A model generated the notes under the pieces. That model was not told the DNA's origin and did not search any database. It was given only the letters and a program-made list of their open reading frames with translations. A stretch of DNA of 20,379 nt. Source: a virus. Positions 7,359-14,222 of the stretch are shown one piece after another. Both the position numbers and the translations under genes were made by a program. Location of the stretch: positions 1-20,379 of the IMG/VR virus record IMGVR_UViG_3300002835_001390; one strand, given 5' to 3'. Positions within the stretch are counted from its first letter, which is position 1. Every line of letters begins with the position of its first letter.

Positions 7359-7391
7359 GTTTCGTAGTTGTACACCAAGATACAGTTTACC

Positions 7392-7400
7392 TGATATAAT
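7392..7400 (+). promoter_or_regulatory. Extended -10 promoter of the structured RNA
   Basis: TATAAT at 7395-7400 in the form TTTACC-TGATATAAT-TAACCTA, identical in core to the protein-gene promoters. The expected +1 is near 7407, two bases before the first stem of the RNA. No ribosome site or start codon follows. Confidence 0.82.
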
Positions 7401-7406
7401 TAACCT

Positions 7407-7755
7407 ATACGCAACGGAGCTAGCCGCTGGCTACCTGAACAACCTGGAACCTAGGGGGTTGGAAACGATACGGCATCCGTTGCGTTTAAGGTTGGACTTG
7501 CCAGGTCTTGGAGCGTAAGGGTATCCCATGGGGAAACTAATCCCGATATGCTGACAGTTACTGATAGGTAGCGTGACTTAGCAAAAGACAAACTAGCAAT
7601 AGGTCGTAGTGAGGTTCGGAGTAAAACCGCATAGCACAACCCACATGCGGTACTGCGCAAAAAGTGAGGCGCGACTCAGTCCTACGTGAGCGAACGTGTC
7701 GGTCCACATCCTTGAAGCTGGTCGCGTACTCCAATCCGCGGCCAGCTTCATTTTA
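7407..7755 (+). ncRNA. Structured non-coding RNA, about 350 nt, unknown family
   Basis: The segment has a promoter (7392), an intrinsic terminator (7714-7759) and no credible gene, and it folds in consecutive domains. Domain I closes with a perfect 10-bp stem, ACGCAACGGA (7409-7418) with TCCGTTGCGT (7476-7485), and holds hairpins TAGCC/GGCTA and CAACC/GGTTG. Domain II closes with AAGG and TGGAC (7488-7491, 7493-7497) pairing with GTCCA and CCTT (7702-7706, 7710-7713). Inside it are GTCTT/AAGAC (7505-7509/7585-7589), GGGA/TCCC (7531-7534/7541-7544), ACCGCAT/ATGCGGT (7626-7632/7645-7651), GCGC/GCGC (7655-7658/7669-7672) and CTCA/TGAG (7675-7678/7687-7690). The terminator hairpin follows at once. 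I found no signature of tmRNA, RNase P, SRP, 6S or a group I/II intron. Pairings were found by eye; no covariation was tested. Confidence 0.8.
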
Positions 7756-7759: not shown

Positions 7760-7775
7760 AACTATGTTTATTTTT

Positions 7776-7796
7776 TATAATTAAACCTGATATAAT
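7776..7796 (+). promoter_or_regulatory. Promoter with tandem TATAAT boxes
   Basis: TATAAT at 7776-7781 and a second at 7791-7796 (with TGA in front), 15 bp apart. The downstream copy is the extended form used elsewhere. It serves the AT-rich gene at 7846; the leader contains the near-repeats ACGAAATACG and ACGAAATCCG. Confidence 0.72.
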
Positions 7797-7845
7797 AGAT
7801 TTATTATTACGAAATACGTAATACGAAATCCGATTGGGGCCTTTC

Positions 7846-8217
7846 ATGCAAAACGCAAACGAATTCACATACTCACGCAACGCGCTTATCACTGACGCTT
7901 CGCACCCATACTTCAACGAAACCGTCGAATTAAATCATCCTTATCAAATCGCCGTCGCGCTTGCCTATATCGCACAATCTAAAATGCCTAACACTAAACT
8001 TATAAACACATTCACATCTGGCTATAACTCATATATGACTTTCGAAATTCCTGCTGACGTTTTCGAAAAATTCAATTACTCTGTCTGGTCTCTTAACTTC
8101 AACGACGACCTCGACATAAAACTCTCAAATAACCAATATCTTGTTTACTCTTACTTTCCTGATATATCTGCAACTCTCGAAAACGAAATTCTTCCCGACG
8201 ATTTTATTATTTCGTAA
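7846..8217 (+). CDS. Unknown protein (123 aa) with atypical codon use
   Basis: ATG at 7846 is preceded by GATTGGGGCCTTTC, not the usual ACGACGAAAGGA site. The protein is rich in Asn, Tyr, Phe and Asp and poor in basic residues (VALAYIAQSK, SGYNSYMTFEIPADVF, YSYFPDIS). No domain is recognised. All four lysines use AAA and no leucine uses CTA, whereas neighbours use AAG and CTA freely, which suggests separate ancestry. It sits alone between its own tandem promoter and a GC-rich terminator, like a recently gained cassette. Confidence 0.78.
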   Translation: MQNANEFTYSRNALITDASHPYFNETVELNHPYQIAVALAYIAQSKMPNTKLINTFTSGYNSYMTFEIPADVFEKFNYSVWSLNFNDDLDIKLSNNQYLVYSYFPDISATLENEILPDDFIIS

Positions 8218-8224
8218 AACATCT

Positions 8225-8276
8225 ACGCTTCGCGCGGCCTCTGCTCTGCATGCCGCGCGCTTGCGTATTTTGCTTT
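8225..8276 (+). terminator. Strong GC-rich intrinsic terminator
   Basis: CGCGCGGC (8231-8238) pairs with GCCGCGCG (8252-8259), and ACGC/GCGT (8225-8228/8263-8266) extends it across a small internal loop. ATTTTGCTTTT follows. It ends the 7846 transcript and abuts the next promoter. Confidence 0.85.
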
Positions 8277-8297
8277 TATAATTAAACCTGATACAAT
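8277..8297 (+). promoter_or_regulatory. Promoter TATAAT / TGATACAAT
   Basis: TATAAT at 8277-8282 lies 15 bp upstream of the extended -10 TGATACAAT (8289-8297). The downstream leader TTATTAACCGCTAATGATTG is nearly repeated before the gene at 8727, so the two promoters and leaders look duplicated. Confidence 0.7.
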
Positions 8298-8330
8298 TGT
8301 CTTATTAACCGCTAATGATTGGAAACCAAA

Positions 8331-12716: not shown

Positions 12717-13232
12717 ATGGCCAAGGTCATTGACAAAGGTTTTGCCCCGGTTCACGAGATCAACGGCTGGGATTTCCCTCTATGGAGCGAGATCCTTCCA
12801 GGTTTATGGACTGGTGGCACAGATGATTTCGACACGATTGACTATACGGCAGACACAAAAACATCCCGTGAAATTACCAAGGACGAGTTCGACACCGTTG
12901 TAACTCTCTATGCGTGGGCACGACCTACCGACTGGTTGGTTGACGAGCTACGCTTTGGTTTTTACGATTCCGACATCGAACATATCGACTGGGTTAAGTT
13001 ACTTAACGTAGTTGACTATGCTCACTCTGCGTGGAAGTCCGGTAACAAGGTTTTAATTCGCTGTCAGGCTGGACTAAATCGTTCAGGGCTGACTACGGCT
13101 CTCGTTCTCATGAAGGAAGGCTACTCTGCTAAGGACGCAATTTCTCTTATGCGAGAGAAGCGTACCGATTACATTTTGTGCAACAGAGACTTTGAACATC
13201 ATCTTCTATCTATGGACGAGATAAATGAGTAA
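12717..13232 (+). CDS. Dual-specificity/tyrosine-phosphatase-like protein (171 aa)
   Basis: The signature CQAGLNRSG (C116 to R122, CX5R) is the phosphate-binding loop of cysteine phosphatases, and the opening EILPGLWTGGTDDFD resembles the start of dual-specificity phosphatases. The usual His before the Cys is Arg (LIRCQAG), which may alter the nucleophile's pKa. The general-acid Asp is not certain; the DSD and HIDW region (residues 88-95) is the best candidate. The substrate could be a phosphoprotein, RNA end or nucleotide. ATG at 12717 follows AAGGAGACGAAA. The next gene, a deacetylase-like protein, overlaps by 8 nt, so the two are made together. Confidence 0.85.
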   Translation: MAKVIDKGFAPVHEINGWDFPLWSEILPGLWTGGTDDFDTIDYTADTKTSREITKDEFDTVVTLYAWARPTDWLVDELRFGFYDSDIEHIDWVKLLNVVDYAHSAWKSGNKVLIRCQAGLNRSGLTTALVLMKEGYSAKDAISLMREKRTDYILCNRDFEHHLLSMDEINE

Positions 13233-14172
13233 GCTTCATGTAGCTTACGATGACATCTATCTTGATTGGAAGTTGGGAAACGGAGATGGCTCACATCCTA
13301 CTAATCCTATACGTGCGCAGTTTGCACTAAACATTCTTAAGGAAGACTACGATGTAGAGGTTGTCAAGCCTGATGCGGATGTTATGGATAAGGCTCACCT
13401 TCAACTCGTTCATGACCGTGAATACATTTCACGAGTTCTTGACGCAGGTCACTCCGGCGAGTGGCATCCGGATGACAAGCACAAGGGACGTGTTGCCCTA
13501 GAGATGTTTGCAGGAACTGTTCGTCTTGCAGAAAAGATTCTTTCAGGAGAAGCCAAGGTTGCGTTTAATCCTCAGGGAGCTAAGCACCATGCGCAGTACG
13601 AGCACTCGTCTGGTTTCTGCGTGTTTAACGACATGGCTTGGGCTGCACGCGAGTTTGCGGCTAATGGGTACAAGGTTATGTACATCGACTGGGACGCACA
13701 TCACGGAGATGGTGTAGAAAATCTTCTACGCGATTTCCCGGAGATTGTGACATGTTCAATTCACGACGGTACGGTATTTCCCGGTACCGGTCGCGATGGG
13801 CATAAGCCAGAGCAGGGAGTCTACAACTGGGCTTTGCCTGAGTACTCAGGAGACGAAGAGTTTATGAAGGCTATAGATGAGATTGAGGATTTGGCCGATA
13901 CGGTTAAACCTGACATCATTCTTCTTGCGGCTGGAGCTGATGGGCACAAGACAGACCCGCTAGCTACACTTCAGTTTGATTATCCTGGTTATAAGTATGC
14001 GTCGCAGACAGTCGCGCGAATCGCAAACAAATATTCACAGGGTCGTATTCTTATCGGAGGCGCAGGTGGGTACCAACCTATTATCCATACCCCGTACATC
14101 TGGGCTGGTGTCGTATCCTGGATATATGACGACGTGATACAATTTAACAACTTGATGAAGGTTCCGTCATAA
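13225..14172 (+). CDS. Histone-deacetylase-like zinc amidohydrolase (AcuC/HDAC family, 315 aa)
   Basis: The family removes acyl groups from lysines or polyamines. Key elements are present: the paired histidines H121-H122 (GAKHHAQ), zinc ligands D157 and H159 in DWDAHHGDG, third ligand D239 in AGADGHKTDPLA, and the transition-state Tyr Y283 in GAGGYQP. Length and motif order are those of a complete class I/II-type enzyme. The N-terminal HPTNP and LVHDREYI motifs also match the family. It starts inside the phosphatase gene (ATGAGTAA overlap, 8 nt), so both are co-translated. A phage-borne deacylase could act on a host protein, a polyamine or a small molecule; the substrate is not visible. Confidence 0.92.
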   Translation: MSKLHVAYDDIYLDWKLGNGDGSHPTNPIRAQFALNILKEDYDVEVVKPDADVMDKAHLQLVHDREYISRVLDAGHSGEWHPDDKHKGRVALEMFAGTVRLAEKILSGEAKVAFNPQGAKHHAQYEHSSGFCVFNDMAWAAREFAANGYKVMYIDWDAHHGDGVENLLRDFPEIVTCSIHDGTVFPGTGRDGHKPEQGVYNWALPEYSGDEEFMKAIDEIEDLADTVKPDIILLAAGADGHKTDPLATLQFDYPGYKYASQTVARIANKYSQGRILIGGAGGYQPIIHTPYIWAGVVSWIYDDVIQFNNLMKVPS

Positions 14173-14185
14173 TCCTTCATCGAGA

Positions 14186-14222
14186 GTCTCGCGGATGTAC
14201 TCCAATCCATCTCGCTTGAGAC
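14186..14222 (+). other. Hairpin with the shared loop TACTCCAATC
   Basis: GTCTC, GCG and GATG (14186-14197) pair with CATC, CGC and GAGAC (14208-14222) with small bulges. The 10-nt loop TACTCCAATC (14198-14207) is identical to the terminator loop of the structured RNA (7727-7736), while the stems differ. It lies after the deacetylase gene and just upstream of a strong terminator, so it would be in the 3' end of that mRNA. Confidence 0.65.

Follow-up and report, generated by a model that had tools for sequence, protein, structure and literature searches.

A predicted stand-alone structured RNA gene in lake-type actinophages that matches no Rfam family

We found that the plus strand of an actinophage genome carries what is almost certainly a stand-alone, single-copy gene for a structured non-coding RNA whose family is not in Rfam. 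The DNA analysed here (the window) is the 20,379-bp virus record IMGVR_UViG_3300002835_001390 of IMG/VR, positions 1 to 20,379, and it is part of a lake-type actinophage genome; its terminase shares 76% identity with that of Actinomycetia phage DSL-LC01, a 129-kb phage whose source is Dishui Lake, and about 60% with those of Microbacterium phages. A sequence-only reading of the window had proposed an unassigned structured phage RNA of about 350 nt with its own promoter and terminator. The homologues support such an RNA and place it at 7492-7749, comprising a 215-nt core (7492..7706), supported by covariation and by a covariance model built without the window, and the terminator; the first domain of the proposed unit (7409-7485) is not included.

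The recognisable genes of the window are all oriented rightward and use one promoter type, ACCTGATATAAT, which occurs in 16 copies with at most two mismatches, all on the plus strand, against an average of 1.6 in shuffled sequences. The other clear copies are directly followed by a short leader, a ribosome site and ATG, whereas no ORF follows the copy at 7389-7400. This copy contains the extended -10 element TGATATAAT (7392..7400, plus strand), exactly where the element had been predicted. A further copy (7785..7796, plus strand), found in the same scan, serves the unrelated downstream ORF at 7834-8217. Being uniform and confined to one strand, the promoter ACCTGATATAAT is handy for predicting transcript starts in these phages.

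At the other end, the intrinsic terminator that had been expected near 7755 is formed by GAAGCTGGTCGCG (7714-7726) pairing with CGCGGCCAGCTTC (7737-7749), giving a 13-bp hairpin with a 10-nt loop (7714..7749, plus strand) and a T-rich tail to about 7760; a terminator hairpin lies 3' of the core in all class 1 homologues. As a separate observation, a loop (G)TACTCCAATCC with differing stems recurs at intergenic sites, at 14198-14208 and 7727-7737 in the window and also at L009 6918, L020 7106, L038 9910, L063 9898 and others. There are about 25 distinct hairpins of this kind, mostly with stems of 5-13 bp, including the terminator of most class 1 RNAs, and a phage or host protein may bind the loop. 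We also considered that the terminator loop (CUCCAA) might form a kissing contact with UUGGAG of the core, and rejected this contact: it is available in some class 1 members only, is broken in L087 and is absent from L033, L034 and L110.

Relatives were first found through the terminase, and further ones through scans for the conserved motif and through the 61-aa gene upstream. Among the terminase-found relatives, blastn matches outside the window's own phage reached E values down to 2e-60; they start in the middle of the proposed unit, at 7486-7493, and extend to the terminator. Core and terminator recur at the same locus in about 30 IMG/VR contigs besides the window, all from one actinophage group, with exactly one copy per long contig (99-130 kb) and a core of about 210-220 nt in the aligned homologues. 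The cores fall into four classes. Class 1 holds the window and most of the others, class 2 consists of L131, L132, L133, L139 and L143, class 3 of L009, L080 and L086, and class 4, which is more remote, of L124 and L125; class 4 is tied to the rest by the P2 motif described below (E 0.0097; 5e-4 to 8e-4 in its own record), the P1 complement and its position, and by nothing more.

A covariance model (R1) derived from ten members of class 1, none of them the window, scored the window core at 185 bits and E=6e-55. It also recovered class 2 (E 7e-13 to 6e-23) and class 3 (1e-5 to 2e-7), all these E values being rough; over 1.05 Mb, it found nothing else at E<10. A structure-free model of the same alignment gave 140 bits against 185 for the window and 64 against 82 for L131, which indicates that structure contributes information beyond sequence. 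The fold energy by itself is mildly unusual (z -2.1; 3 of 100 shuffles equally stable) and is unconvincing alone, so that the proof of structure rests on the homologues.

The covariation alignment contains 16 distinct sequences, with 16-20 distinct sequences at hand overall. In it, 95.5% of the cells are paired, a value to be read with the knowledge that the alignment was fitted with a structure model, which favours pairing, and 27 of the 49 pairs are altered on both sides. Double-changed cells number 111. Shuffles give 35, and sliding the partner over by one to three columns gives 5-16. We then applied a home-made, R-scape-like test, in which the inferred substitutions are redistributed along the tree. 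Under this tree-preserving null the mean of paired cells is 70.5%, and nine of the 49 pairs are significant (E<0.05), spread over six helices (P2, the AUG hairpin, P3, P5, P8 and P6), with no significant pair outside the structure; an earlier alignment gave an identical count of significant pairs in the same test. The covariation on which the sequence-only reading had made its proposal depend is thereby found, and the homologues keep the stems and no reading frame. A hidden protein gene was rejected, since the open frames are unlike in frame and length between homologues and none is conserved.

The core is laid out as a three-way arrangement in which P1 closes P2 and P3, and P3 leads through P5 and P8 to a second junction of P6 and P7. 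P1 pairs 7493..7497 with 7702..7706 (TGGAC/GTCCA in the window, TGGGC/GCCCA in L061 and TTGGAAC/GTTCCAA in L124). This is the inner part of a long-range stem that had been drawn at 7488-7497/7702-7713; the inner part is conserved and covaries, but the outer AAGG 7488-7491/CCTT 7710-7713 lies beyond the conserved core. The P2 domain (7501..7581) is closed by 7501-7507/7575-7581, with the variants CTAAGTC/GACTTAG, CTGAATC/GGTTCAG and CTAGACC/GGTCTAG. Inside it, from 7515, begins the best-conserved motif, GUAAGGGU, a hairpin with an AUG triloop and ACUAAUCCCGAUA, whose consensus RUAMGGGU-hairpin(AUG)-UANUCCCRANAWG is found in all four classes. The tree-preserving test finds one significant pair in P2 and one in the AUG hairpin, and by eye the AUG hairpin covaries across all classes (UCCC/GGGA, UCUC/GAGA, UCCAC/GUGGA, GCCAC/GUGGC, ACCGC/GCGGU).

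The P3 side is the variable half of the core. The P3 domain (7587..7700), closed by 7587-7594/7695-7700, includes the covarying helices P5 (7607-7611/7681-7684), P8 (7619-7622/7674-7677) and P6 (7626-7632/7645-7651), as well as the mostly invariant hairpin P7 (7654-7658/7669-7673); at present, P1 and P7 barely vary. P6 carries a 12-nt loop (7633-7644), which reads AGCAANAUCGAC in most homologues and is shared by most of classes 1 and 2, while the window loop deviates (AGCACAACCCAC) and the conserved loop is absent from classes 3 and 4; in class 4 the P3 side seems to have been replaced. All these elements lie on the plus strand. A further helix, CUAAC/GUUAG in class 1, was rejected by eye, because its pairing is lost when the 5' strand changes.

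Searches for known relatives of the RNA agreed with its unassigned status. Against Rfam 15, at the gathering threshold and at E 10, neither the window nor the class 1-4 homologues match any family, chance sub-threshold hits aside; 6S RNA, RNase P, SRP, self-splicing introns, known ribozymes and riboswitches are among the models without a match. ARAGORN and Rfam found no tRNA or tmRNA in the window or in the homologue cores, and the earlier statement that no tmRNA, RNase P, SRP, 6S or intron signature is visible holds. One relative has, at L089 8893-8968, a tRNA-Ile gene with the anticodon TAT, which is uncommon in bacteria. No copy was found in a 131-kb relative or in the complete DSL-LC01 record, and blastn against phage records and plasmids found no relative. 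Scanning 84,980 bacterial and archaeal genomes for the motif gave two coincidental matches with the rest of the RNA absent, a looser scan for further RNA classes gave coincidental sequence only, and an open-literature search on non-coding RNAs of freshwater actinophages found nothing.

Upstream of the core in the window lies a 77-nt leader module (7409..7485, plus strand), with small internal hairpins and a 10-bp closing stem that had been described as perfect; indeed, ACGCAACGGA (7409-7418) is fully complementary to TCCGTTGCGT (7476-7485). The TATAAT-to-core distance is 4-25 nt in the 20 other carriers examined and 91 nt in the window only, because the leader module intervenes there. The module is also found in L027, L034 and L167, between the promoter and the ribosome site of protein genes, and in L034 the core and the module occur as two separate units. 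In L027 the closing stem is ACGATGAAGG/CCTTCATCGT, so that the sequence is replaced with full complementarity kept, and the internal ACCUGAAC and GGAAAC-AUACGGC are retained. The predicted unit of the window is composite, the leader module being joined to the RNA core only there. That it is instead a single 350-nt RNA with two co-evolved domains, as first proposed, is highly improbable: the two domains share one promoter and one terminator in the window, but elsewhere they are found apart, with the module before mRNAs and the core without the module in other carriers.

Since the module precedes unrelated genes as well as an RNA, it more likely serves the 5' end in a general way, through stability or insulation, than as a sensor for one gene, and it would protect or insulate the 5' end of the RNA. 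Stem-loops in 5' mRNA leaders are known structures at transcript starts. The module resembles them in its place at a predicted transcript 5' end ahead of unrelated genes, and differs from them in standing also ahead of a non-coding RNA, in its larger size and in its internal conserved ACCUGA / GGAAAC-AUACGGC. Another structured leader, of about 110 nt, is present at L038 900-1060, where the standard promoter precedes it and a small gene with its ribosome site follows; it is closed by TTCAAGGG/CCCTTGAA, contains GCTAGCCACTAG and may be distantly related to the 7409-7485 module.

The locus speaks for an autonomous RNA gene. Each of the 21 carriers examined has a TATAAT upstream of the core and another one 3' of the terminator, and those of their downstream genes for which a call was possible belong to at least 12 unrelated families. 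A leader acting in cis, a riboswitch or attenuator whose terminator gates the next gene, would fit the position of the RNA ahead of an ORF and the terminator at its 3' end. In every one of these carriers, however, a promoter for the next gene follows the terminator, and the downstream genes vary, which for practical purposes excludes this role; we consider it extremely unlikely. The upstream 61-aa gene is the sole near-constant neighbour, and it is also present in phages that do not have the RNA. In the window, the gene that follows the RNA (7834-8217) looks AT-rich compared with its neighbours and varies between relatives, and searches of Pfam and PHROG gave no match for it; the region 7760-8300 is a probable cargo hot spot. 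Elsewhere in the window, just ahead of the terminase, a gene for a histone-deacetylase-family protein (13225-14172; PF00850, E 9e-58) adjoins one for a dual-specificity-phosphatase-like protein (12717-13232), a pair that is unusual phage cargo.

The predicted RNA gene is accessory, with alleles swapped or deleted at the locus. The core is missing, with promoter and terminator side by side, in L075/L130 (one contig) and in L134. Over the upstream 500 nt, L129 is 95.6-95.8% identical to L131-L133, while its RNA, which is of a different class, is only 53-55% identical to theirs; between L131 and L132 the flanking genes are identical and the RNAs 65% alike. The reverse is seen in L129 and L024, which have 85% of the RNA but 61% of the flanking gene in common. 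L131 and L133 have RNAs that are 99.5% identical and unrelated downstream genes. These mismatches between flank and RNA identity indicate that RNA alleles move between phages at one locus.

The overall best explanation, to which we give about an even chance, is an autonomous RNA gene that acts as an accessory trans-acting RNA on a host factor. From its accessory pattern, the RNA is probably a tool of the phage used on the host. Tentatively, and with somewhat less assurance, we suggest that it acts in trans as a moron-like RNA that binds a host factor, perhaps in counter-defence or takeover. Transcription would start from the phage's standard extended -10 promoter and stop at the predicted intrinsic terminator, a host protein or RNP would bind the conserved loops displayed by the compact fold and be sequestered or modified by the RNA, as happens with viral decoy or scaffold RNAs, with allele loss and swapping mirroring variation of the host target. 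The large conserved fold, with invariant bases in its internal and hairpin loops, suggests that a protein or RNP recognises the RNA more than that it acts by simple base pairing, and the exchange and loss of alleles suggest a target that differs among hosts, although both would suit any accessory gene and not counter-defence alone. More speculative, and on balance improbable, is the joint claim that a partner-free folded RNA serves as a counter-defence or host-takeover effector, its alleles exchanged as host targets vary, and that it would be to bacterial viruses what decoy RNAs are to animal viruses.

Other functions are conceivable at lower probability. The RNA might be a trans-acting base-pairing regulator, with the P6 loop (AGCAANAUCGAC) or the P2 loop as the seed against phage or host mRNAs and the remaining fold as a stable carrier. 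We regard this as rather unlikely: a 12-nt loop conserved in most of class 1 and class 2 and a stand-alone gene with a terminator would suit it, but the fold far exceeds the typical size of a carrier, the loop departs in the window and is lacking in classes 3 and 4, and a quick scan of a few genomes for complements of the P6 loop gave no convincing target. A structural RNA that assembles with its own copies into cages or rings, in the manner of GOLLD and ROOL, for packaging, storage or encapsulation, is a less probable role still. By setting it is the closest known kind, being phage-borne, stand-alone, conserved in fold and dispensable; yet our RNA is a quarter to a third of the size of GOLLD and ROOL and has no Rfam match, the window has no tRNA island, and no palindromic loop is retained across all classes. 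The multi-helix junction and the invariant, unpaired purine-rich stretches could also point to a ribozyme, self-processing or acting on other RNAs, but as no Rfam ribozyme, intron or RNase P model matches at E 10 and no interrupted gene is seen, this is very doubtful.

Whatever its target, the predicted trans-acting RNA represents a new family of a known kind, the phage-borne structured RNAs, and is a member of no named family. Among the features of an autonomous non-coding RNA, it has a conserved promoter and terminator of its own at its two ends, as judged from sequence, and compensatory changes beyond phylogenetic expectation. GOLLD is phage-borne and extensively structured, with one part universally conserved and another variable; it exceeds 800 nt in many members, often lies near tRNA islands and forms a 14-mer cage (PMC12286853). 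ROOL is about 660 nt long, has multiple pseudoknots and no known protein partner, and is non-essential in at least one strain (PMC12286853). Our RNA resembles GOLLD as a phage-borne structured non-coding RNA with conserved and variable parts, and ROOL as a stand-alone, dispensable RNA of phages or prophages. Unlike GOLLD, it has a core of 215 nt, a different fold and no Rfam match; unlike ROOL, it is much shorter and does not match the ROOL model, and it differs from both in sequence as well as in fold. Neither the GOLLD nor the ROOL model of Rfam hits the window or the class 1-4 homologues at the gathering threshold or at E 10, and the core, at about 210-220 nt, falls short of the lengths (about 600-800 nt or more) typical of these two families. 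Adenovirus VA RNA and the EBERs of EBV are short, autonomous, structured RNA genes of viruses, whose products bind host factors; they are RNA polymerase III transcripts of animal viruses, and we draw a functional analogy only and claim no homology.

Phages that infect lake Actinobacteria have received little study. The stand-alone structured phage RNAs known so far are few, and for the best-known ones, GOLLD and ROOL, the function is unsettled. The RNA described here is small enough for structure work and comes in several natural classes with covariation. Its natural deletions and allele swaps in near-identical backgrounds make the questions of whether the phage needs it, which host it serves against and which of its loops matters directly addressable.
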